This document shows positions 8,257 to 24,297 of a stretch of DNA of 64,000 bases, in pieces. Positions within the stretch are counted from its first letter, which is position 1; every line of letters begins with the position of its first letter. A model generated the notes under the pieces. That model did not search any database. It was not told the DNA's origin and was given only the letters and a program-made list of their open reading frames with translations. Source of the stretch: Lacibacter cauensis (lineage in GTDB: Bacteria; Bacteroidota; Bacteroidia; Chitinophagales; Chitinophagaceae); NCBI RefSeq assembly GCF_007830055.1, contig NZ_VLLE01000004.1, forward strand, positions 711,248 through 775,247, written 5' to 3'. The translations under genes were made by a program, and so were the position numbers.

Positions 8257-9021
8257 ATGAATATTTTAATTGTTGAAGACGAAGATCTGGCCGTAAAAAA
8301 ATTACAGAAAACATTAGCGGCTGTAGACGATACAGCTGTAGTGCTCGCATCAACCGATAGTATTAAAAGTACAGTTGAGTGGTTGAACGATAACCCGCAG
8401 CCCGATCTGATACTGATGGATATTGAACTGGCCGACGGCCAGAGCTTTGAAATATTTAACCTGGTTGATGTAAAAAGTCCGGTGATATTCACCACTTCGT
8501 ACGACGAGTATGCATTAAAAGCGTTTAAAGTAAACAGTGTTGATTACTTGCTGAAGCCGATTCAGAAAGAAGAGTTGGCTGCTGCGTTAACCAAGTACAA
8601 AAAATTACAGAGCAATGCCAAGCCCGATATCAGCCTCGATAACCTCGTAAAAGAATTACAACAAAAACTGCAGCCGAAAGAATACCGCAAACGATTTTTG
8701 GTAAAGCATGGACAAAAGCTGGTAAGCGTGGAAGTGGAAGACATTGCCTACTTCTACAGCGATGGCCGGTTGAACTTCTTTAAAACAAAAGACAATAAAA
8801 AGTTTGTAGTGGACTATACCATGGACGAGCTGGAAGAGATGCTCGATCCGGAACGGTATTTCCGCATCAGCCGTTCATTTTATGTATCGGTAACCAGCAT
8901 CGACAAAATTGATGATTACTTTGGTAACCGTCTTGTGCTGGGTCTTATTCCGGAAGTAGACAAGGAAGCATTGGTAAGCCGGGAAAAAGTAACCGAGTTT
9001 AAAAAGTGGATGGGTAAATAA
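8257..9021 (+). CDS. LytTR-family response regulator
   Basis: 254 residues. The receiver domain (1-120) has the acidic pocket IVEDED, the phospho-acceptor Asp55 in LILMDIEL and the conserved Lys100 in YLLKPI. A linker leads to a LytTR DNA-binding domain (about 145-250), with FLVKHGQKLVSVEVEDI and the typical FRISRSFYV stretch. LytTR proteins bind direct repeats upstream of their targets. It is the last gene of the kinase operon and is followed at once by a strong terminator, so it is the likely output of both LytS kinases. Confidence 0.94.
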   Translation: MNILIVEDEDLAVKKLQKTLAAVDDTAVVLASTDSIKSTVEWLNDNPQPDLILMDIELADGQSFEIFNLVDVKSPVIFTTSYDEYALKAFKVNSVDYLLKPIQKEELAAALTKYKKLQSNAKPDISLDNLVKELQQKLQPKEYRKRFLVKHGQKLVSVEVEDIAYFYSDGRLNFFKTKDNKKFVVDYTMDELEEMLDPERYFRISRSFYVSVTSIDKIDDYFGNRLVLGLIPEVDKEALVSREKVTEFKKWMGK

Positions 9022-13423: not shown

Positions 13424-14338
13424 ATGCATATCCGTTCAGCTTTCATGTACTGCTTCATGCTTGTTGCGCCTTTGTTGTTTTCCTGCAGGAAAGGAAAACC
13501 GTCAACGAAAACCTACCGTTTTACGGAAACAATGCAAGTCGATGGCTTAAGCAGAAAATATGTATTGAACCTGCCGCCCAACTATTACGAACAGTCTGGC
13601 TTTTCGCTGGTCATTGCCATGCATGGCGGCGGTGGAAGTGCTGCACAGTTCGAAAGCACCTCCTTGCTCACCCAAAAAGCAAACAGTGCAGGTTTTATTG
13701 TGGTTTATCCGGAAGGTACCGGTGTCATCAATACCTGGAATGCCGGCACCTGCTGCGGTCCGGCAGTTACCAATAACATCAACGATGTAAAATTCATCAG
13801 TATGCTTATTGATAAACTGATTGCGTCGTACAAGATCAATCCAAAGAAAGTATACGCTACCGGCCATTCCAACGGTGGCATGATGAGTTACCGCTTAGCC
13901 TGCGAACTGAGTACGAAGATTGCAGCCATTGCACCCAACGGTTCTACCATGGTGGTGACCCAGCCTTGCAATCCGGCGAGAGCAGTTCCGGTGTTGCACA
14001 TGCATTCCAAACTCGATCAGCATGTAGTGTACACCGGTGGATATGGTAACGGGGTAAGTGGTGTGTACTGTCCGCCACTCGATTCGGTGTTCAATGTATG
14101 GTCGCTGAAGAATAATTGCACAACGACTAAACAAACCATTTTCAGCAACAGCAATTACACGTTAACCCGCTGGCTTAACTGTACCAACAATGTGACCATC
14201 GATTATTATTTAACCAACGATGGCGGACATGGATGGCCCGGCGGCTTGCCCGGTGGACCAAACTCCGATATTCCCTCCACTTCCATCAACGCCAACGATC
14301 TGTTGTGGAGCTTTTTTCAGCAATACCAGTTGCCGTAG
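13424..14338 (+). CDS. PHB-depolymerase-like (LpqC/CE1) esterase lipoprotein
   Basis: 304 residues. A lipoprotein signal (LLFSC, Cys near position 21) starts an alpha/beta-hydrolase of the polyhydroxybutyrate depolymerase/feruloyl esterase type. Visible landmarks are the oxyanion HGGGG, the nucleophile elbow GHSNGG, the HSKLDQHV segment around the probable Asp, and GGHGWPGG holding the probable catalytic His. It probably hydrolyses ester bonds of a polymer or plant-derived substrate at the cell surface; the substrate cannot be told. It lies alone, with repeat-rich DNA directly after its stop. Confidence 0.88.
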   Translation: MHIRSAFMYCFMLVAPLLFSCRKGKPSTKTYRFTETMQVDGLSRKYVLNLPPNYYEQSGFSLVIAMHGGGGSAAQFESTSLLTQKANSAGFIVVYPEGTGVINTWNAGTCCGPAVTNNINDVKFISMLIDKLIASYKINPKKVYATGHSNGGMMSYRLACELSTKIAAIAPNGSTMVVTQPCNPARAVPVLHMHSKLDQHVVYTGGYGNGVSGVYCPPLDSVFNVWSLKNNCTTTKQTIFSNSNYTLTRWLNCTNNVTIDYYLTNDGGHGWPGGLPGGPNSDIPSTSINANDLLWSFFQQYQLP

Positions 14339-14480
14339 TTGCAAAGCTGTTTGATTGGGGGACAGGAAGAAGGAAAAAGACTGTTGTTGGCATCCTCGCC
14401 AACAAAGAATACGACCAGCATACACATAATTTTTGCACGTTGGCGAGGATGACAACAGGAGCAAAAGGCCGCTTTTTTCT

Positions 14481-14508
14481 CAGGCGAGTCTCCTGCAAGG
14501 GACTCGCC
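14481..14508. repeat. palindromic repeat GGCGAGTC...GACTCGCC, copy 1
   Basis: 8-bp perfect arms (14483-14490 and 14501-14508) around TCCTGCAAGG. Two further copies with near-identical loops lie at 14672-14697 and 16694-16719. It sits in the intergenic stretch after the esterase gene. Confidence 0.85.
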
Positions 14509-14528
14509 GCTTTCTTCGTAACACATCG

Positions 14529-14661
14529 CCCCAACCGGAGCGTCATTGCGAGGCACGAAGCAATCTGCTCTGCAACATGCATTCCTTCTTTTATGATTGC
14601 GATCTTCACCAACCAACAACAGCGGTTGGATGCATAAACAGATGAAGAGGTTATTAACAAT
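14529..14661. repeat. 133-bp dispersed repeat A (copy 1)
   Basis: Nearly identical to 16783-16915. It starts CCCCAACCGGAGCG, contains GTCATTGCGAGGCACGAAGC, and ends near GATGAAGAGGTTA. It has no coding signal of its own. Internal short hairpins are ATTGC/GCAAT and CCAAC/GTTGG. The GTCATTGCGAGG motif is, as I recall, widespread in intergenic DNA of several phyla. Confidence 0.9.
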
Positions 14662-14671
14662 TTTATTCTCA

Positions 14672-14697
14672 GGCGAGTCTCCTGTATGGGACTCGCC
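14672..14697. repeat. palindromic repeat GGCGAGTC...GACTCGCC, copy 2
   Basis: Same 8-bp arms as copies 1 and 3 with loop TCCTGTATGG; it directly abuts repeat C1. Confidence 0.85.
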
Positions 14698-14698
14698 G

Positions 14699-14863
14699 TT
14701 CTTCTCAGCAATTCCTCTCCCTGTACATAGTTACTGTTTCGCACAAAGCCTGTGGAGGACGTTGCGTACAAGAAAATTACTTTTATAAAACAAGCAACGT
14801 CCCCCGTTAAGCTCAGTACAAATAGTATACTTCAATTATTGGGAGACGTTGCTGGGAAAAAAG
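14699..14863. repeat. 165-bp dispersed repeat C (copy 1)
   Basis: About nine bases in ten match 18253-18416. Three internal arms can pair in two exclusive ways: ACGTTGC (near 14760), GCAACGT (near 14794) and GACGTTGC (near 14845). No protein is evident. With repeat A it fills the 585-bp gap between the esterase and T9SS genes; the remaining DNA up to 14923 shows nothing else. Confidence 0.88.
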
Positions 14864-14923
14864 CTTTCAACTGCTATCTTCTCCGGTTCGCTTACACTAG
14901 AAACAGTGCTTACGAATACTGTG

Positions 14924-16162
14924 CTATTTTTTAATTACAACTGTGCGTGAAACCTTGCCCGTTGTATGCCATTGCACAAAATAAACTGCACTCGGCAACT
15001 TTTCAGTAGCCAGCACAAAACCATTATGCAAATAGGTTACCGGTACAGCATACAATCTTCCCGCAACATCCATTACCTGTATACCCTCTGCCCTGTTACC
15101 ATTATTGCTTTTGGTTTCCACAAACAACCTGTTCACAAACGGGTTAGGGTATGCAACCGAATTATCTTGCCCTGTACGCTGCACAAGTACTACGGCCGAA
15201 TAACTGAAATACCCGTTTACATCAACCTGTTTCAATCGGTAATATGCACTTACAGGTAGTAAACCCTGTGCATCAACATAACTATATTCTTGCGGGCTGT
15301 TACTGTTTCCTTTACTGTTTACCACGCCGATTTTTTCAAAACGTATACCATCGGTACTACGCTCAACTTCAAAATGACTGTTATTGAATTCATCTGTACA
15401 AATCCAGTTAAGCCTGTTTAACCCCCCTTCTGCTTTTGCGTAAAAACCACCAAGCGTTACGGGCAACGTAGGTAAATTACCAAGCAGTCTGAAATTATCT
15501 GCGGCCATTTCTTCCGTACCACTACCGTTGGCAAAAACATTCAATCGTAAATCCAATAGGCTGCCCGTACCAGGAATATTTGCAGAAAACTCGGTAAAAG
15601 CATAAGTCAAATCGGCTCCGTCTCCAACCAAATCACCTGTAGTTTCTAATTTCAACGTTTGCGTTTGCCCGGTTGTGCCTGCATAAAAGGCAATAGCCTT
15701 GGTCCATGAGCCTCCATCAATGCGGTATTCCACTGCCATATAATCCTGGTTTGCGCCAAAGGAAGCTCCCTCCCAGTTAGAAGCGAATGAACCGTTTGCT
15801 GCAAACAAACCTCTGAACACTAAATTGGTACGGCCTGTAATGTTAATTCCGGACCAGGTTACTTGTTGATTGGCACTTGCTGATCCATTAACACATATTG
15901 GGCTGGCATCAACATCTTCGAAAGCCCAGAACTTACTTCCTTCCATACCGCTGTAGGTTCCGCTTATTAAATTGATGCCTGCTGTATTGGTTCTGAAAAA
16001 ATAGCTGGTGGCTGGTGGCCCTCCACACGAAAAGTTCGTACTGGGTGTTCTGCTTCCGCTTGAAGGTGCACCGCTGTCTTCAAACGTATCGTTCCAGAAA
16101 AGTGTTTGACTGTAAGTACTGCAGTAAAGAAAGAAAAAAGATGCTGCTAAAATAAAACGCAT
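14924..16162 (-). CDS. secreted protein with type IX secretion C-terminal sorting domain
   Basis: 412 residues from the start codon at 16160-16162, which yields a signal peptide ending STYSQ; the open frame further upstream has no leader character. The middle part is a beta-sandwich-like region with VEYRIDGGSW. The last 80 residues (AYPNPFVNRLFVET, then MDVAGRLY and a closing VSRTVVIKK) are a Por-secretion-type sorting domain. By family it is exported through T9SS and attached to or released from the surface. The N-terminal part (FWNDTFEDSG) resembles T9SS adhesin-like proteins; the ligand is unknown. Confidence 0.85.
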   Translation of the reverse strand: MRFILAASFFFLYCSTYSQTLFWNDTFEDSGAPSSGSRTPSTNFSCGGPPATSYFFRTNTAGINLISGTYSGMEGSKFWAFEDVDASPICVNGSASANQQVTWSGINITGRTNLVFRGLFAANGSFASNWEGASFGANQDYMAVEYRIDGGSWTKAIAFYAGTTGQTQTLKLETTGDLVGDGADLTYAFTEFSANIPGTGSLLDLRLNVFANGSGTEEMAADNFRLLGNLPTLPVTLGGFYAKAEGGLNRLNWICTDEFNNSHFEVERSTDGIRFEKIGVVNSKGNSNSPQEYSYVDAQGLLPVSAYYRLKQVDVNGYFSYSAVVLVQRTGQDNSVAYPNPFVNRLFVETKSNNGNRAEGIQVMDVAGRLYAVPVTYLHNGFVLATEKLPSAVYFVQWHTTGKVSRTVVIKK

Positions 16163-16782
16163 AACAGAGATGATTTTGGGTTTGTAAAATGAGAATAATG
16201 TGCTGCAACAATTCACCTCATCCAGCCACACGATCCCGTGTAGTTGACAATAGTTAAAAAAGATGGTGTAAAATTTAAAATGAAACAACCGGATGGTTCA
16301 TTTTACAGAACACAGGTAACAGGAAAAGAATAGGTACAAAGGAGGGTAAAGATCGATGCATGCAAAAGGATTTTATAGATTTTAAAACTCCCGCAAATAT
16401 ATTATAATTTTTTTACACTTAAGTAGTAGTTGCTACGAAACCAAATAAGAGTTTTTGCTTATTTATTCCTGTGTTTAATTGAAGTCTTAGGCATTGGTCT
16501 CTGAATATAAAAGCTATACTTTTTTAAACTTTCAATGGATGAGATCACGAAGCTGGTTAAACAAAACTCACTTTTCTTCGTACGAATTAGTGGCATTTGT
16601 GGCTTTCATCATATCTGTGTGCATCTGTGTTTATCCGTGGCCAATGCCCACCGGATGCTTTCGTAGTAAACTTGGGAATATATTTTCTTCTCAGGCGAGT
16701 CTCCTGTAAGGGACTCGCCGTTCTTAATTTATTCGTTCCAATACGACAAGTCAGTTTTACCAGACTCGCCTCCGAAACAAAA
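16163..16782. other. intergenic stretch with repeat remnants
   Basis: This 620-bp gap holds the upstream region of the T9SS gene, an AT-rich segment around 16390-16480, a remnant resembling one arm of the CTTTGTGG-type inverted repeats near 16601-16650, and the third GGCGAGTC palindrome. I see no convincing coding sequence. Confidence 0.6.
16694..16719. repeat. palindromic repeat GGCGAGTC...GACTCGCC, copy 3
   Basis: Perfect 8-bp arms around TCCTGTAAGG, matching the copies near 14.5 kb. Confidence 0.85.
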
Positions 16783-16915
16783 CCCCAACCGGAGCGTCAT
16801 TGCGAGGCACGAAGCAATCTGCTCTGCAACATACATTCCTTCTTTAACGGTTGCGATCTTCACCAACCAACAAAAGCGGTTGGATGCATAAACAGATGAA
16901 GAGGTTACTAACAAT
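16783..16915. repeat. 133-bp dispersed repeat A (copy 2)
   Basis: Same sequence as 14529-14661 apart from a few substitutions. Its last bases overlap the 3' end of the following minus-strand gene and contain that gene's TAG stop codon (16908-16910). Confidence 0.9.
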
Positions 16916-17483
16916 ATTCGTGTAACGCAAGCTTCTCCCGCAGTTCAACAATACCGGTACCAAGGTATCGTTTGGCAACTGCATTGGTTGCCCGGCATAT
17001 TTTTTCGGCTTGTACAAGTGCAGCAAAACCTTCAGGGCCTTCTTCTTCCAGTATTTCTTCTTTTTCTTCAGGATCAAACAAACTGTCTTCATCAATCGCA
17101 AGCTCTTCCGCTACCGGCTCACCTTCGTTGCATTCAATTTCGCCATCAACAACAAGTACTTTACGTACGGCCATCCCCTTGCGTATAATACTGAAGCCAA
17201 ATACAGCAGATGTTTCATCCCAGATGATGGCAGCAGCTTCAACGTCTTCTATATCCAAAAGAGGATTTTCCTCATCCAATGCACCATAGGCCAGGTTGCC
17301 ATTGCAACAGATCATATAATCAGCTATGCGGCCTATAAACACACGATCGTATTGTTTACTGGTTGCATAAAAATCAAATGCCTCGCCTTTTTTTAAATCA
17401 GACTTATCCATTAACTGCAACAATGCTTCAGGAGTATTGATTGTTTCACTTTTGATAAATACAGGATGTAAACGAAATGCCAT
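16908..17483 (-). CDS. hypothetical acidic protein
   Basis: 191 residues, no signal peptide. It opens MAFRLHPVFIKSE and contains the segment AAIIWDETSAVFGFSIIRKG. A very acidic stretch lies at about 125-150 (DPEEKEEILEEE). I do not recognise the family; the pattern suggests a cytoplasmic domain, but no motif supports a function. The stop codon lies inside repeat A copy 2, so the extreme C-terminus (HEYC) has probably been altered by the repeat. A 24-bp near-perfect palindrome lies 55 bp upstream of the start. Confidence 0.65.
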   Translation of the reverse strand: MAFRLHPVFIKSETINTPEALLQLMDKSDLKKGEAFDFYATSKQYDRVFIGRIADYMICCNGNLAYGALDEENPLLDIEDVEAAAIIWDETSAVFGFSIIRKGMAVRKVLVVDGEIECNEGEPVAEELAIDEDSLFDPEEKEEILEEEGPEGFAALVQAEKICRATNAVAKRYLGTGIVELREKLALHEYC

Positions 17484-17537
17484 AACAATTGTTTTTAATG
17501 GTTGCTGTGTTCACCAGCCACCTTTTATGAACCTATT

Positions 17538-17561
17538 TCGGTTGATGGCGCCACCAACCGA
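17538..17561. promoter_or_regulatory. 24-bp near-perfect palindrome upstream of the 16908-17483 gene
   Basis: Outer arms TCGGTTG / CAACCGA enclose TGGCGCCA, with one mismatched pair. It has no T run, so an operator is more likely than a terminator. Confidence 0.45.
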
Positions 17562-17685
17562 TAAGAAAGCTGTTATTCTTGCTTAACCCATTTTTATATA
17601 ACCTAATAACCAACTAAAGCTTAGCCCAACAAAAAACAGTCCTGCCAATATGAAAATTACGAAAACCACATAATTAAACCCCTTT

Positions 17686-18069
17686 TCATTTTTCAGAACA
17701 AATTTTTTTGGGGTTCTCTGGGTCATATAAAATGGGAACAGGTTGATTGATGAAATTAGTATACGACCTTAGTTTACTTAGGTCTGTCGAAGCATAAATA
17801 ATTGGCTTCGCTTTAATAATGTCTCCTGTAATAGTAGTAAACTCAATTAGTGGTGTTTTATGTCCGTCACTATCGGATTCATATGCTACGATGTTGCCTG
17901 TCCTAGCAATTCCTGTCTTAGAAATTTTCTTTAGAAATAGTACTGCTGCAAAACCGATATAAGATATAAGTATCCCGAGAATTAAAAAGCATAATGCTGG
18001 TTTGATAAATAGACATAGCCCAAACGTCACAACAAGAGCGATCCGATATTTTTTTATTAACTCCATCAT
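17686..18069 (-). CDS. DUF3592-like membrane protein
   Basis: 127 residues. Two hydrophobic segments (about 9-22 and 25-47) form a hairpin anchor. A soluble domain follows, with GNIVAYESDSDGHKTPLIEFTT and the ending VPILYDPENPKKI, which is characteristic of DUF3592-type proteins. Function is unknown; some relatives occur in accessory or toxin-immunity settings. It is monocistronic, with low GC like its neighbours in this island. Confidence 0.7.
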   Translation of the reverse strand: MMELIKKYRIALVVTFGLCLFIKPALCFLILGILISYIGFAAVLFLKKISKTGIARTGNIVAYESDSDGHKTPLIEFTTITGDIIKAKPIIYASTDLSKLRSYTNFINQPVPILYDPENPKKICSEK

Positions 18070-18474
18070 TTTAAGTCTGAGTATATAAGTTAGCAGGAAG
18101 TGTCTGTTTACAATAGCCGTTTACGGACAGGGCTTTCTGCTGTACTGATACTCTGTGATTCGTTAGCCTGGAACCGAAGCTGAGTAAAGTTAATGTGGTT
18201 GATCTTATATTCTATAGCTCGGCTTTAGTTGTTCGGCCCGAACCACAGCTCTTCTTCTCAGCAATGTCTCTCCCTGTACCTGGTTGCTGTTTCGCACAAA
18301 GCCTGTGGAGCACGTTGTGTATAAGAAAATTACTTTTCCATAACACGCAACGTCCCCGTTAAGCTTAGTACAAATAGTCTATTGCAATTATTGGGAGACG
18401 TTGCTTGGGAAAAAAGTCTTTGTTGAGTTTCCCTTCCCTAGTTTGTGTCGTGTCGGACTGTACGTTGGCTGTCT
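18070..18474. other. intergenic stretch containing repeat C copy 2
   Basis: This 405-bp gap lies between the DUF3592-like gene and hamB. Near the DUF3592 start an imperfect hairpin (AGCAGGAAG to CTTTCTGCT, about 18092-18145) is visible. The rest is mostly the repeat at 18253-18416. No gene is seen. Confidence 0.6.
18253..18416. repeat. 164-bp dispersed repeat C (copy 2)
   Basis: Matches 14699-14863 over its full length with scattered substitutions and a 1-nt indel. It retains the GCAACGT and GACGTTGC arms; the first arm reads ACGTTGT. It lies directly downstream of hamB. Confidence 0.88.
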
Positions 18475-20601
18475 TTATACTTGATTTTGTGCATCATTTA
18501 AAAGTTCTTTCTCGAATTGCGTTACTTCTAAACTTTCAATTGGAAGTTCTCGAATCTGTTCAAGTAAATCGTCAAAATTACCATTAGTGTACAATTTGTC
18601 TTTGATTTTATTACTTGTCTGAATTGGAATACCATATTCATCTAAGGCAACAAATAATGGGTCTGTAAATAAACATTCGATTTGTGAGGAGAAATAAGAA
18701 TAGTCACCAGTTTGAAAATCTATATCTTCATAAAGTTCTTTCTGAATTCTATTCAATGCCATCATGTATTTCGGAAAGTTGTATTGAGCCCAAAAACGAA
18801 TAAATTCTAAAATATTCTCTATAGCTTCATTTACCTTTTCGGGTTCTCCATCTTCATCAATCTCATTTGCAATTAGGTCTTTGATATTACCAACAGTCCT
18901 CAAATTATTTATTTTGAAAGCTAATTGGCTACCTGAACTAATGCCGCCAACTCTACCACCATCAACCAAAAATTTCCAAATTAACTCGCATGCAAACTTT
19001 AATTGGTCATAAGTGGGGAATCTGTTCCACTTCAATAGGTAGTGATAGCCTCTCAGATTACCTTTTAGAAAAGTTGCAAGGTCAATTTGGCTTTGTGGTT
19101 CAATATTCGAATTAGCTTTAATTGTCTTAATGCTTAAAATTCCATTGTTAGAAAGTGTTTGAATTCTATCTTTTGATTTTTGTGATAAATCATCATTGTC
19201 CATTTGCATCAATAGTTTCTCAGGTACTTCATCTGTTTGGCTGAATAAGGGAAAATCTACCAATGGCAGTTCTTCGGTTGGTGGTTCATGAAAAAGAAAT
19301 ACTCTGCCGATAAAATGCTGAAACATTCTGCCACTTCTACCACAAATATTGTTGAAGGTAAAGAAGTCAAATTTCTCATTGGCAACCTTGTTATCGTATA
19401 TGATTACATTCTTAGCTTTTGTATTTACGCCTTCAATGAGGGTGCTTGTGCAAACTAAAAACTGAAGTTTATCTTCATTAAAAGCTTTTACGGCAAACTG
19501 TGAAATAGCCCGTGGAATTTTACCGTGGTGAATTCCTATTCCGAATTTCAATGCCTTAGGAAGAAACCAAAGCGGATGATATTCTTCTTCTAACCATTCA
19601 ATTGCATTTGCGTTGTTTTGATTTTTTTTGAATTTTCCCGAATCAAAAAGCAGTTTTGCAACCTTGTTTGCACTTTTTGGTGACTTGCAATAAATTAAAG
19701 TTGGTTCTGTCAATTCAGCACATAAGTTCAAAAGGGCATCTTCATCATTTGTTGGAACAGCAACTTTAATCTTCTCTGTGATTACTGTTTTGTAGTCTGT
19801 CTTGATGAAGTTTATTTCAACATTTTCAGGAAATACTTTTGAGTTTATGTTTTCAATGTTTGGGCCTAACAAATAAAATTGACCGCCTTTTTTGAGTAGT
19901 TTGTAAAATGCCTGGTTTAATATAATGCTTCTTTCTTGGTCTTGAGGCGTGGGTTGAATTTTGTAGAATTCATCAATCACAAAAAAGTCAACATCAACTT
20001 CGTTTATAATTTCCATAACTCGTTCTTGAGTTAGAACGAAAATATTTCTATCACTTACAGACTGAGTGGAATGAGTTATGATTTTGTAAAGGTCTCTAAA
20101 GCGTGAAAGTCGCTTTCTTGTTTCATCAATCAAAGCAATGGTAGGTAATACAATTGCAATGTTTTTGAAGCGTTCAGTGGCAATTATTGTATCAATCACC
20201 AAACTTTTTCCAAAACTCGTTGGTGCACTAAGAATTACATTTTTCCCATCAAGTAATTCAAAATAAACTCTTGCTTGTGCCCTGTGAAAAACGATATTGT
20301 CTTGTTCAACACCGTCTGGACGGTGAAACTCATATGCAATTTTATCAGCAAGATTTAATTCTTTTGGGTCAAGGTATGGGAATAGGCCAATTTCTCTAGC
20401 AAAATCGTTAATTATTGATTGGTAGTTACCAAACATGTCACGCTGTTCAATAACCCGAAGAATTACTTCCTGTAAATAGACTTCATTCTTTTGATTAAGA
20501 TTATTGGCAATTGATTTTATCACAGAAAATGCATTCTGGGGATTGATAGCATTTTGCCTCAATAAATTGTTGATTTCAAGTAAGCTTAGATTTTCTGCCA
20601 T
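18475..20601 (-). CDS. hamB: Hachiman defence helicase HamB
   Basis: 708 residues of a superfamily 2 helicase. Visible motifs are Walker A APTSFGKS (126-133), the DExx box DEFY (210-213) inside FFVIDEFYKI, the TSTLIEGVNT stretch (385-394) and motif VI GRSGR (421-425). C-terminal to the motor is a helical region with no other recognised domain. In Hachiman, HamB is the helicase that senses or processes foreign DNA and unleashes the HamA nuclease. Here it overlaps hamA by 16 bp and follows it in the same minus-strand operon, the classical order. The AT-rich composition differs from neighbouring core genes. The helicase call is firm; the system call rests on the HamA partner. Confidence 0.9.
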   Translation of the reverse strand: MAENLSLLEINNLLRQNAINPQNAFSVIKSIANNLNQKNEVYLQEVILRVIEQRDMFGNYQSIINDFAREIGLFPYLDPKELNLADKIAYEFHRPDGVEQDNIVFHRAQARVYFELLDGKNVILSAPTSFGKSLVIDTIIATERFKNIAIVLPTIALIDETRKRLSRFRDLYKIITHSTQSVSDRNIFVLTQERVMEIINEVDVDFFVIDEFYKIQPTPQDQERSIILNQAFYKLLKKGGQFYLLGPNIENINSKVFPENVEINFIKTDYKTVITEKIKVAVPTNDEDALLNLCAELTEPTLIYCKSPKSANKVAKLLFDSGKFKKNQNNANAIEWLEEEYHPLWFLPKALKFGIGIHHGKIPRAISQFAVKAFNEDKLQFLVCTSTLIEGVNTKAKNVIIYDNKVANEKFDFFTFNNICGRSGRMFQHFIGRVFLFHEPPTEELPLVDFPLFSQTDEVPEKLLMQMDNDDLSQKSKDRIQTLSNNGILSIKTIKANSNIEPQSQIDLATFLKGNLRGYHYLLKWNRFPTYDQLKFACELIWKFLVDGGRVGGISSGSQLAFKINNLRTVGNIKDLIANEIDEDGEPEKVNEAIENILEFIRFWAQYNFPKYMMALNRIQKELYEDIDFQTGDYSYFSSQIECLFTDPLFVALDEYGIPIQTSNKIKDKLYTNGNFDDLLEQIRELPIESLEVTQFEKELLNDAQNQV

Positions 20602-21431
20602 GCTGCCAATTTATCTAAAAGTGTTTGAGATAATTTTGCCTTGTTTTCCAAAGGACATAAGAACAAATGAATTTTGACTGGGCATTTTACTTTTGCTAAA
20701 AATGCTTTGTGATTAACTTCAATTTCAGGTAATATTTCATTTAAATAAGCCTCATTAAATTCCCTGTGCTTTGCCACCAATGGTGAATCATATGTAAGCA
20801 AAACAGGAACACAAATTGCCTTGAACACATCATCTAATGAAGTATTTGGGTCAAGCAGTCTTACCAGTTTATCGTAATGCGGAAAGGACTTGTCAATTTT
20901 GTTGGTGATTGCTGCGAACTCATTTCTTAAGTAAACTTTATCAAAATGGGCTTCAATTTCGGGAACAACATCATAAACAGCATTGTAGAAAGTATTGTAA
21001 AACTTTACTTCTCCAAGCCAAAGTTCTAAACCATCTTCATCAGCTATAACATGAACAGCATCAAATCCTTTAACGGTTTCATTTGGGCCATCCTTAAAAT
21101 AAATTTTGCTAATGGCAGGAATGGTATCATAGGCTTCTTTCAAAATACCGTGAAGCAATAATTCACCAAACTCACCCCTCTTGATATTATCAGTCTGAAA
21201 AATATTTTTTGCTGCTTCTCTTAATTTTTTGGGTGCAGATTTGCCGTCAACTATTTTAAACTCTGAATACTTTAAGGCAAAGTCGAGTAAATGCTCATCA
21301 AATAACCAATCGGCAAACTGATTATATCTCCATTCTTTCAGCTCGTAACCACCGCATAAACCTGTTATGCCACACTCAGGAGGAGTTTCAGAATGAACAA
21401 GAAGTTTTAAAAATTTCAGTTTGTCTTTCAT
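20586..21431 (-). CDS. hamA: Hachiman defence nuclease HamA (DUF1837)
   Basis: 281 residues, similar in pattern to the DUF1837 family. A PD-(D/E)xK-like core is visible: RGEFGELLLHG (85-95), GFDAVHV with Asp124, and LGEVKFY with Glu141 and Lys143. In studied Hachiman HamA proteins an equivalent Glu-x-Lys pair is needed for nuclease activity and protection. HamA is thought to be held inactive by HamB and to degrade DNA on phage infection. Its stop lies inside hamB, so translation is coupled. All expected catalytic positions are present, so the system looks intact. Confidence 0.9.
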   Translation of the reverse strand: MKDKLKFLKLLVHSETPPECGITGLCGGYELKEWRYNQFADWLFDEHLLDFALKYSEFKIVDGKSAPKKLREAAKNIFQTDNIKRGEFGELLLHGILKEAYDTIPAISKIYFKDGPNETVKGFDAVHVIADEDGLELWLGEVKFYNTFYNAVYDVVPEIEAHFDKVYLRNEFAAITNKIDKSFPHYDKLVRLLDPNTSLDDVFKAICVPVLLTYDSPLVAKHREFNEAYLNEILPEIEVNHKAFLAKVKCPVKIHLFLCPLENKAKLSQTLLDKLAAWQKI

Positions 21432-21520
21432 TAACTCTGCTTTAGCGAATTATTTATAACTGGGTTCGTATGTCGAAAAGGTTTACTTTTTCTCATTTCG
21501 ATACTTTGTTGTCTACCGTA

Positions 21521-21654
21521 TCGTAACGGTTCGTGTATTGCCGAAGGCGGGGTGTTTTAGCACAAAAGTTCAATAGAAGAACGAATATTGAACCTTACAC
21601 AAATGCCCAATCGAAGCCATTCAGCCCCGCTTTTGGCAATACCTTGTTAGCGGT
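21521..21654. repeat. attC-like imperfect palindrome
   Basis: Outer arms 21535-21552 and 21625-21642 pair over 18 positions with two G-T wobbles. They are flanked by TAAC (21524-21527) and GTTA (21646-21649). Inside is a second hairpin GTTCAATA / TATTGAAC. Size and architecture resemble integron cassette attC sites, but the core sites deviate from the consensus and no integrase gene is visible. Confidence 0.55.
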
Positions 21655-21660
21655 AGTTTT
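21646..21660 (+). repeat. left 15-bp terminal inverted repeat
   Basis: GTTAGCGGTAGTTTT; its reverse complement occurs with two mismatches at 22571-22585, on the far side of the gene at 21662-22525. Confidence 0.55.
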
Positions 21661-21661
21661 T

Positions 21662-22525
21662 TTAGAGTTCATTATATTTTTTTAGTGTCATTGTCGGTTT
21701 TGCAATTTCTCTTAATGTCATTTTAAAGTCGTAGTGTCTGCCTGTCAAATCTATTGAATAGTATTTGCCTTTATATTCAAATTCTATAAAAGGTTCTTCT
21801 GTAATATCCATGCTAAAGAAGTTTTTCTCTTTGGTTATTTCAAGTGGTTCACTTGACGCCGTTCTTGCATTGATTTGAATGCTGTCAACATTTACACCAC
21901 CAAAAACAAGATTATTGTAGTAGTATTTTACATATAAACCTTTGTCAATTATGGGATAATTCTCTAAGTATGGTAGCTGTTTTACAATTGCTGTTGTGTC
22001 AATTGAGAGTATTGTTGATGTAGTGTCGTCAACTTGGTTTTGTTTTTCAGATGGTTTTGTTAGCCTGTCGTATAAGTTGTTGCCAAAAATTAGAACAACA
22101 ATTGCAACAACCAAGGAAGCTAAAGCAATTTTATGAGAACGTTCCCATTTATTTTTGTTTGTAGATTGTGAATTGGTTTGTGAGCTGTATAAATCGTTTG
22201 TTACATCTTTGATTATTGTTTTTAGTTTTTCTATGTCGCTATAAGTGCTTTGACTAAAAGCAGATACTTTGTCCTGAAAACTTTCATTAGGGTCAAATGA
22301 AATAAAGCCAACGTCCAAAAAATCCTTTGAAATTTCATCGTCACTAAACAATTGTTTTAAAAGATTTCCCGATGACTTCCACCAAATTTCGTGTTCATCA
22401 AGTAACTTTTCGTATTCGTTTTGATTACGTAGGTTGTGACATTTTGATAAAATTATCTGTCCGTCACGAACTTTGTCCTCTAAGTGTTTTATGGTATCAT
22501 TTTTTGTCTTAATCAGCGTTGCCAT
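21662..22525 (-). CDS. hypothetical single-pass membrane protein beside Hachiman
   Basis: 287 residues. Residues 1-125 are hydrophilic and helical (VRDGQIILSKCHN, LLDEHEIWWKS), without signal peptide. One membrane helix spans about 133-149, and 160-287 is a soluble, mostly beta-like domain (FIEFEYKGKYYSIDLTG). I recognise no family. It lies upstream of hamA on the same strand but 230 bp away, across the attC-like palindrome, so it is probably a separate unit. Both ends carry a 15-bp inverted repeat. Composition is AT-rich like hamAB, suggesting co-acquisition. It might be a defence accessory protein; that is only inferred from position. Confidence 0.65.
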   Translation of the reverse strand: MATLIKTKNDTIKHLEDKVRDGQIILSKCHNLRNQNEYEKLLDEHEIWWKSSGNLLKQLFSDDEISKDFLDVGFISFDPNESFQDKVSAFSQSTYSDIEKLKTIIKDVTNDLYSSQTNSQSTNKNKWERSHKIALASLVVAIVVLIFGNNLYDRLTKPSEKQNQVDDTTSTILSIDTTAIVKQLPYLENYPIIDKGLYVKYYYNNLVFGGVNVDSIQINARTASSEPLEITKEKNFFSMDITEEPFIEFEYKGKYYSIDLTGRHYDFKMTLREIAKPTMTLKKYNEL

Positions 22526-23156
22526 GTTCGTCTCTTGATGTTACAATTGTTGTCTGGGGTTGGTCGTCCTAAAATTACCGCTGACGCATAAATATGCGCA
22601 AGTCTTTCAGCCTCTCCACTTTCGCTTTTTTTACGAGTCGCTTCATTAATAATTGGTTCTAAAAATTGTTTATTCTTGTAACAGTTGCGCAAATACTATT
22701 CTGTTTATACCTGTGCAAACGTTGCTAAACGTTTGTACACAACTATAAAGCACATCCTCCTGCTTCAACTTTACAAAACAAATCACTATTGTAACGGTTA
22801 CCTGCGCAGCAATCAAAACAAATTATCCGGGAGTAAGCGTGGAGTTTGGGTTAGCTCTGGCTGTTCCGGTGGATCACGGTAGCGGCTGTCACATGCTGGC
22901 GCAATGGAAAAATAAAACAAAATAAGCATATAGAAATAAGTTCATATCAAAACACTTCCGGCTTCTCTCTGCCTTCCGCATTAAGCATTCCGCATTCAGC
23001 CTTCAGCTCTCCCCGTACATACCCCGTAGATGCACCGTAGATAGTTCGACGAAACGATCCCTTTTGATCCTTTTTGATCCCTTCCGTTCCCTTTTGTGCC
23101 CAAACGGGAAGTTTCAGCCTTAAAACCCGCTTGCAAAAAACAATTTTGCTAAAACA
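22526..23156. other. intergenic stretch upstream of recA
   Basis: This long gap contains the right terminal repeat, a palindrome CGCATA/TATGCG (about 22584-22597), a perfect hairpin CAAACGTT / AACGTTTG (22716-22735) and short direct repeats of the GATCCCTTTT type around 23056-23085. No convincing gene is seen. Confidence 0.55.
22571..22585 (-). repeat. right 15-bp terminal inverted repeat
   Basis: Reads GTCAGCGGTAATTTT on the minus strand, 13 of 15 bases matching the left repeat at 21646-21660. Confidence 0.55.
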
Positions 23157-23188
23157 TTTGGTTTCCAAAAAATTTAGTTTTAGTATTG
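23157..23188 (+). promoter_or_regulatory. recA promoter, Bacteroidota type
   Basis: A -33-like TTTG (23157-23160) and a -7-like TAGTATTG (23181-23188, one mismatch to TAnnTTTG) are spaced by 20 bp, just upstream of recA. I see no LexA-like box. Confidence 0.55.
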
Positions 23189-23268
23189 CTAAATAAATTA
23201 GTGTGTACAAACAAAACAAACCCGTTATGGAAGAGACTTTAATTTTGGAGAAACCAAAAAAGGAAAAA

Positions 23269-24297
23269 ATGAGTAAAGAGAGCAACATCAACAATGAAAA
23301 GCTCAAGGCATTAAAGCTCACCATCGACAAAATTGATAAGGACTTTGGCAAGGGCAGTGTAATGATGATGAATGAAAAAGGCGTACATGAAATGGAAGTG
23401 GTATCAACCGGTTCTATCGGTTTAGATACAGCTTTAGGCGTTGGCGGTGTACCCAAAGGTCGTATTGTAGAAATTTATGGTCCTGAAAGCTCCGGTAAAA
23501 CAACCATTGCAACCCATATTATTGCAGAAGCACAAAAGAAAGGCGGTATCTGTGCCATCATTGATGCGGAACATGCATTCGACAGTTTATATGCGCAAAA
23601 GCTCGGTGTAGATGTAGACAACCTGCTCATCTCCCAACCCGATTATGGCGAACAGGCATTGGAAATTGCCGATCGCTTAATTCTTTCCGGAGCATTGGAT
23701 GTAGTGGTAATCGACTCGGTGGCAGCGTTGGTACCAAAAGGTGAACTGGAAGGCGAAATGGGCGACAGCAAAATGGGTTTACAAGCCCGTTTAATGAGCC
23801 AGGCCTTGCGTAAACTCACAGCTACCATCAATAAAACAAATACCATCTGCATTTTCATTAACCAGCTGCGTGAAAAGATCGGTGTCATGTTCGGTAACCC
23901 CGAAACAACAACCGGTGGTAATGCCTTAAAATTCTATGCATCGGTTCGTTTAGATATTCGTCGTATGAGCCAGATCAAAGATGGCGATGAAGCAATTGGT
24001 AACCGTGTAAAAGTAAAAGTGGTAAAAAACAAAGTAGCACCTCCGTTCAAAGCAGCGGAATTCGATATCATCTTCGGAGAAGGTATCAGCAAAACAGGCG
24101 AAATCATTGACATGGGTGTTGATTTAGCGATCATCCAGAAAAGCGGTAGCTGGTACAGCTACAATGGCGATAAGTTAGGACAAGGTCGTGATGCAGTAAA
24201 ACAACTCATCATGGACAACCCCGAAATGTCGGCAGAAATTGAAGCAAAAATTCGTGAAAAGATAAAAGAAATTCAAAGCGGCGCAGCTGCTTCGTAA
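23269..24297 (+). CDS. recA: recombinase RecA
   Basis: 342 residues from the ATG at 23269, preceded by AGGAAAAA; an in-frame ATG at 23227 would add 14 residues. RecA carries out homologous strand exchange and DNA repair. Visible are the Walker A loop GPESSGKTT, the [13 protein letters not shown] Walker B region, the [10 protein letters not shown] and [19 protein letters not shown] loops, and the usual C-terminal domain. The acidic tail typical of proteobacterial RecA is short. It stands alone between its promoter and a terminator and marks the right border of the accessory region. Confidence 0.98.

Follow-up and report, generated by a model that had tools for sequence, protein, structure and literature searches.

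The locus considered here raises two questions: whether a pair of overlapping genes near recA in Lacibacter cauensis forms a complete Hachiman anti-phage system, and how these genes came to lie there. The window, a stretch of 64,000 nucleotides, had been described in a sequence-only reading as carrying such a system, intact and acquired, in an AT-rich, repeat-flanked island. From the analysis presented below we conclude that HamAB is very probably an intact two-gene Hachiman anti-phage system that was acquired horizontally. As a system it is ordinary and of a kind already known. What may surprise a specialist is the family of cassette sites represented beside HamAB.

Identity of the hamA and hamB genes

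The gene pair comprises the following features.

18475..20601, minus strand: hamB, an SF2 helicase of 708 aa (PADLOC HamB1, AbpB match, motifs)
20586..20601, minus strand: overlap of 16 bp between the hamA end and the hamB start (ORF coordinates; also 16 bp in the related loci L005, L006 and L007)
20586..21431, minus strand: hamA, a predicted nuclease of 281 aa with D124, E141 and K143 (Pfam HamA, PADLOC HamA1, residues, fold)

The 281-aa ORF matched the Pfam family HamA, as DUF1837 is currently called, with an E-value of 5.4e-54 and 183.9 bits, far above the curated cut-off of 25, and the PADLOC model HamA1 with 1.1e-105. The earlier assignment of a DUF1837-like gene with a D-x16-E-x-K pattern was therefore correct; the pattern corresponds exactly to D124, E141 and K143. 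These residues and E90 were invariant in an alignment of 14 homologues. A search of solved structures with the single HamA sequence found no relative. A profile of 14 HamA proteins retrieved the C-termini of AbpA proteins (9wh1_A, 1.7e-11; 8zue_A, 4.1e-9). The AlphaFold model of HamA (mean pLDDT 81.3, pTM 0.85) was aligned by VIA-align to residues 256-537 of AbpA (8zue_A; Z 19.1, 255 aligned, rmsd 4.0), to HamA of ECOR31 (8vx9_A; Z 14.9, 219 aligned, rmsd 4.1) and to 8vxy_A (Z 12.3); the best unrelated row was a restriction endonuclease with Z 5.3. The nuclease residues and the modeled fold of HamA are intact, and on this basis activity is predicted.

HamB matched the PADLOC model HamB1 with an E-value of 6.6e-253, and the SF2 helicase motifs read from its sequence are intact (APTSFGKS with K132, DEFY at 210, GRSGR at 421). 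The nearest solved helicase was AbpB (8zue_B; residues 43-685, 1.4e-105), whereas the match to HamB of ECOR31 (8vx9_B) was weak (1.5e-6). Judged by homology, the helicase is of the compact AbpB type. Since HamB is closer to AbpB than to the ECOR31 protein, details of activation may differ. In the ORF list hamA directly precedes hamB on the same strand, and the coordinates agree with the claimed 16-bp overlap of the nuclease and SF2 helicase genes. A PADLOC check had been suggested and was run; with both protein matches, the gene order and the intact motifs and residues, the description as a complete Hachiman system held.

Seventeen HamA loci, including that of the window, were compared. A HamB match lay beside HamA in 16 of them, the exception being L047. 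In L043, L045 and L046 this match was weak (E 1e-6 to 5e-9) and may reflect helicase similarity in general; the HamA match of L043, a weak one from the phylum sample, was not relocated by BLAST. At L047 (G345:C48) the HamA-like stretch lies inside an open frame of 889 aa, and the fetched stretch gave no HamB match.

Insertion beside recA and origin of HamAB

The surroundings of the gene pair contain the following features.

14339..23137, no strand: inserted block of ~8.8 kb between esterase and recA, missing at the junction in three same-genus genomes
14471-16725, no strand: 44-nt repeat in three copies (repeat search)
14529-14677 / 16783-16931, no strand: 149-nt repeat pair, 91%, around the 454-aa ORF (region 14529..16931)
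14699-14862 / 18252-18414, no strand: dispersed repeat of 106+61 nt, 89-90%, its second copy just past the hamB end
14924-16288, minus strand: ORF of 454 aa (ORF list)
21432..21455, minus strand: 24 nt before hamA, 20/24 positions as in L005 (hsdS end there), a possible scrap of an earlier neighbor
21514..21655, minus strand: attC-like palindromic site following the 287-aa gene (fold, family alignment, model R1 130.9 bits)
21662..22525, minus strand: ORF of 287 aa, probable cassette gene of no clear family (ORF list, Pfam, PADLOC)
22578..22585, minus strand: GTCAGCGG, where the 287-aa cassette may begin (one mismatch to the R'' complement)

For 10 of the 13 genomes of the same genus, the recA region was examined in a total of 11 stretches, and the esterase-recA junction was visible in three of the ten. 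The matches to esterase and recA lie 82, 100 and 103 nt apart in G004, G007 and G013, respectively, and the similarity of their DNA to the window breaks off at 14334-14340 and picks up again at 23138-23144. The window thus carries an insertion of ~8.8 kb, which contains HamAB, ORFs of 454, 191, 127 and 287 aa, and repeats. A search for an empty site between esterase and recA had been proposed earlier, and the short junction is such a site. In G001 (RecA 98%) another gene lies directly before recA and the stretch holds no esterase match; none was found in the stretches of the remaining six same-genus genomes either.

The term repeat-flanked proved half right: the dispersed repeats are real, but every copy is on the HamB side of the gene pair, leaving the recA side free of them. 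The segment 18240-18420 had five matches in the genome including itself and the copy at 14.7 kb, the other three being partial (72-80%). Folding of 18240-18474 was little better than that of shuffled sequences (z -1.19, 27/200 shuffles as stable).

A search of 58 relatives, 13 belonging to the same genus, detected HamA in none, and the 191-aa neighbor was likewise missing from all 58. Within a sample of 395 genomes from the phylum, HamA matches came from 14, including the present one, and the best of the others had 47% identity. A GTDB scan for HamA yielded 42 pattern stretches, of which three relatives were confirmed: Flammeovirgaceae UBA2366 (L005, HamA 95% identical), UBA5008 of the Flammeovirgaceae (L006, 93% in the best segment, with Ns inside) and Xanthocytophaga flavus (L007, 64%). 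None of five pattern stretches for HamA in IMG/VR was confirmed. The 83 plasmid records for HamB all had <60% identity, and none of them therefore represents a close plasmid carrier.

The loci of UBA2366 and UBA5008 resemble that of the window in HamA identity and in the 16-bp overlap. In UBA2366 HamAB follows a type I restriction operon, with hamA starting 3 bp after hsdS. In UBA5008 HamAB is accompanied by an AIPR/AbiU-type protein (8e-107) and a PLD-domain protein (L006:3044-5041 and 13-1872), so this copy may also sit among defense genes. The UBA2366 HamB gene (L005:6831-8951) is a mosaic: DNA identity to the window is 87-96% up to about residue 450, 50-52% at 501-600 and 90% in the last 14 columns. 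The break lies near residue 473 (maximum chi-square 135, reached by 0/2000 permutations). HamB of UBA5008 shows 75-85% DNA identity to the window up to column 700.

The genomes of the window and of UBA2366 share 95% identity in HamA and 73% in RecA, with RecA identity within the genus being 91-98%. DNA similarity to UBA2366 spans 18458-21455 except 18788-19083, and that to UBA5008 spans 18476-21432. Because the similarity stops near the ends of HamAB, what the genomes share is HamAB plus about 20 bp per side. The GC content of HamAB is 0.338 vs 0.423 for the window outside the island; the copies in UBA2366 and UBA5008 have 0.339 and 0.346. GC3 is 0.28 in both hamA and hamB, below the values of recA (0.42) and the amidase gene (0.45). 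The absence of HamA from the 58 relatives, the HamA and RecA identities with UBA2366 and the low GC and GC3 bear out the claims that the genes are AT-richer than their neighbors and were acquired. Acquisition is well supported by these comparisons, and the locus clearly exemplifies a complete defense module that distant genomes have in common along with hardly any flanking sequence. Among the 63,976 24-mers on the plus strand of the window, not one matches the 24 nt preceding the UBA2366 hamA as closely as does the segment at 21432..21455, and by eye the sequences upstream of hamA in UBA5008 and X. flavus have no likeness to it. On the simplest reading, the window copy would have come from an hsdS-like setting and kept a scrap of it.

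The attC-like palindrome noted earlier is real, as indicated by its family members and its fold (21500-21661, z -3.55, 0/200 shuffles as stable), but it follows the 287-aa gene, and HamAB has no site of its own. Rfam gave nothing for 14000-23500 to an E-value of 0.1, and the palindrome DNA as BLAST query matched only itself in its own genome. The putative start of the 287-aa cassette has one mismatch to the R'' complement, a level also reached in 97/392 and 52/618 controls. The only PADLOC hit of the 287-aa gene was weak (PDC-M05B, E 0.0014). A role of this gene as third Hachiman component was rejected, as the ORF lists of L005, L006 and L007 show no such ORF beside HamAB. The 9-mer ACAGCCAAC just past hamB, identical to two R'' of the array in G002 and shared with L005, was considered as a cassette end and dropped because its complement was found neither on that strand in 14000-23500 nor in L005. 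A second attC-like site of the own genome (L123:5427-6632 in G000:C4; 92.3 bits) has an R'' that shares bases with the stop codon of a 357-aa ORF.

Two other histories of the gene pair were considered. HamAB could have been inserted as an integron gene cassette, as the attC-like site directly upstream of hamA and the defense genes carried by arrays of the same site family elsewhere might suggest. With filters off, however, only a single R1 site was found in 14000-23500, upstream of hamA with none downstream of hamB; the complement of the palindrome R' was not found downstream of hamB, and the UBA2366 copy sits behind hsdS instead. We consider insertion as a cassette very unlikely. That HamAB is an old locus inherited vertically and lost elsewhere in the genus appears extremely improbable. 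Defense genes are often lost, which would make such a pattern conceivable, but HamA is missing in 13/13 same-genus genomes searched and three of these keep the short esterase-recA junction. The near identity of HamA with that of a genome so distant in RecA and the GC and GC3 values unlike those of the neighbors also argue against inheritance. Horizontal acquisition of HamAB is the reading that we retain.

The family of attC-like sites

A pattern of the two palindrome arms was found in 10 of 395 phylum-sample genomes, in one place each, whereas the reversed pattern gave no hit in the same genomes. It also occurred in 14 IMG/VR stretches, two of which look like chance. After L072 and L075, which share no inner sequence, were left out, 22 of 24 family members aligned, inner sequence included. 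Integron cassettes carry the complement of their own R'' at their start. An exact complement was found at the cassette start for 10 of 21 sites, L073 being omitted for lack of AAC at R''; controls gave 8/392 with the R'' of other sites, 0/618 with shuffled sequences and 1/21 without complementing. The contrast was weaker with one mismatch allowed (13/21 vs 97/392 and 52/618).

The same test was done with arrays of other genomes. Of 75 R1 matches 56 were entered, leaving out 15 weaker matches, two cut by a stretch end, one own-genome match and L115:4451; removal of four without AAC left 52. Two of the array sites (L110:17559 and L118:14824) are the same as L051 and L053 of the 21-site test. The exact complement was present in 23/52 vs 12/2588 and 4/1028 in controls, and with one mismatch in 31/52 vs 350/2588 and 92/1028. 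In view of this excess over controls we read the sites as cassette-end sites, about half of which show no exact start. They share with integron attC sites the AAC/GTT ends, the paired inner arms and the upstream R'' complement. They differ in R'' itself: the textbook consensus is RYYYAAC, which fits only 3 of the 52 array sites.

Model R1 matched 22 of 22 genomes at E<=0.1, with best values per genome from 4e-31 to 5e-5; these E-values are rough. Six of the 22, including the own genome, which has five matches, had been picked for an arm-pattern match and the other 16 had not. The sites form cassette arrays elsewhere, and three arrays adjoin an Xer-like recombinase (G002, G010 and G430). In G002 a tyrosine recombinase of 393 aa lies upstream of the array on the same strand. 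Those of G010 (43% over 384 residues to the G002 protein) and G430 (48% over 167, split between two frames) are placed likewise. The G002 recombinase does not reach either integron-integrase cut-off (TIGR02249, 183 of 265; NF040815, 208 of 220). At 94, the spacing between its first Arg box and HxLR lies close to that in Xer proteins and is shorter than in IntI1. No such recombinase was found in the site stretches of G035, G190, G195, G398, G059, G008, G013 and G007, so that the link between array and recombinase comes from three genomes. In the own genome the best TIGR02249 match for an integron integrase had 80.2 bits vs the cut-off of 265, and matches short of the cut-off were likewise obtained in each of the 14 control genomes.

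The arrays themselves vary in extent. In the same-genus genome G002 (L121-L122, C62:12000-40000) a one-strand array lies behind the 393-aa recombinase. Ten of 21 listed ORFs of L121 were scanned with PADLOC and five, situated between array sites, matched defense models: a CBASS-type cyclase (2e-146), a 4TM effector (1e-81), a TIR-effector model (4e-9), PycC (6e-21) and PycTM (7e-11). The other five matched nothing in these models. In G010, also of the same genus (L120, C4:415000-435000), the recombinase is followed by four same-strand sites at 8309, 9745, 11283 and 12408. In G430 (L110-L112, C2:140000-200000) a long array covers ~152.7-182.4 kb with the split-frame recombinase just before it.

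The palindrome may belong to an integron-like system found across the Bacteroidota, in which an Xer-like recombinase that has an N-terminal extension but lacks the integron-integrase insert would collect and shuffle anti-phage genes through arrays of divergent attC-type sites, with Hachiman at one of its landing places. We propose this tentatively and with less than even confidence. Parts of integrons in this phylum are already in print: Bacteroidota are named among the phyla with integrons (PMC8618304, PMC9668308) and attC clusters are described in phages, including a Polaribacter phage (PMC9892861). The accessible integron literature, which excludes most subscription papers, gave no account of the present site family. 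If the cassette result holds, it would provide a route for shuffling defense genes in a phylum for which one survey reports few integrons (PMC9024848).

Proposed mechanism and comparison with known systems

By homology to the E. coli complexes, the Ski2-like helicase HamB would hold the restriction-endonuclease-like HamA bound and inactive. During phage replication, an encounter of HamB with damaged DNA or with a free single-stranded end would lead to ATP-driven movement that releases HamA, which would then degrade phage and host DNA, so that the infection ends with the cell. Sensing, complex formation and killing by the window pair are proposed by analogy with published work. According to PMC12278908, HamA is kept in check by Ski2-like HamB on intact DNA; HamB responds to a free single-stranded end, and active HamA degrades phage and host DNA, giving cells without DNA; DNA-damaging drugs are another trigger.

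HamAB of ECOR31 (8VX9, 8VXA, 8VXC, 8VXY; PMC12278908) resembles the window system in its two-gene locus, helicase partner and HamA fold. The ECOR31 residues E138 and K140, which were mutated in that study, form an E-x-K pair like E141 and K143 of the window protein. Its HamB chain has 1174 residues vs 708 in the window. AbpAB of E. coli (8ZUE, 9WH1; PMC10732053) shares the compact helicase, with AbpB matching residues 43-685 of HamB, and the C-terminus of AbpA matches HamA in profile and fold. According to PMC10732053, AbpAB responds to a phage single-strand-binding protein or DNA damage and can be aligned with Hachiman in limited regions only, with ~16% identity.

This likeness could mean that the window system is of the AbpAB type, with the HamA-like protein serving only as a non-cutting structural adaptor. 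The much stronger match of HamB to AbpB than to ECOR31 HamB and the position of AbpA as best fold match of HamA would agree with such an arrangement. However, the defense activity of AbpA is attributed to an N-terminal nuclease domain (PMC10732053), which the 281-aa protein lacks. In addition, PMC12278908 assigns to AbpA an inactive HamA site and a fusion at the N-terminus, whereas the window protein keeps D124, E141 and K143. A purely structural role of HamA is highly improbable in our view, and we regard the pair as Hachiman. With an AbpB-type helicase present, the extra AbpA domain absent and the catalytic residues of HamA kept, the window system is a form that links AbpAB to Hachiman.
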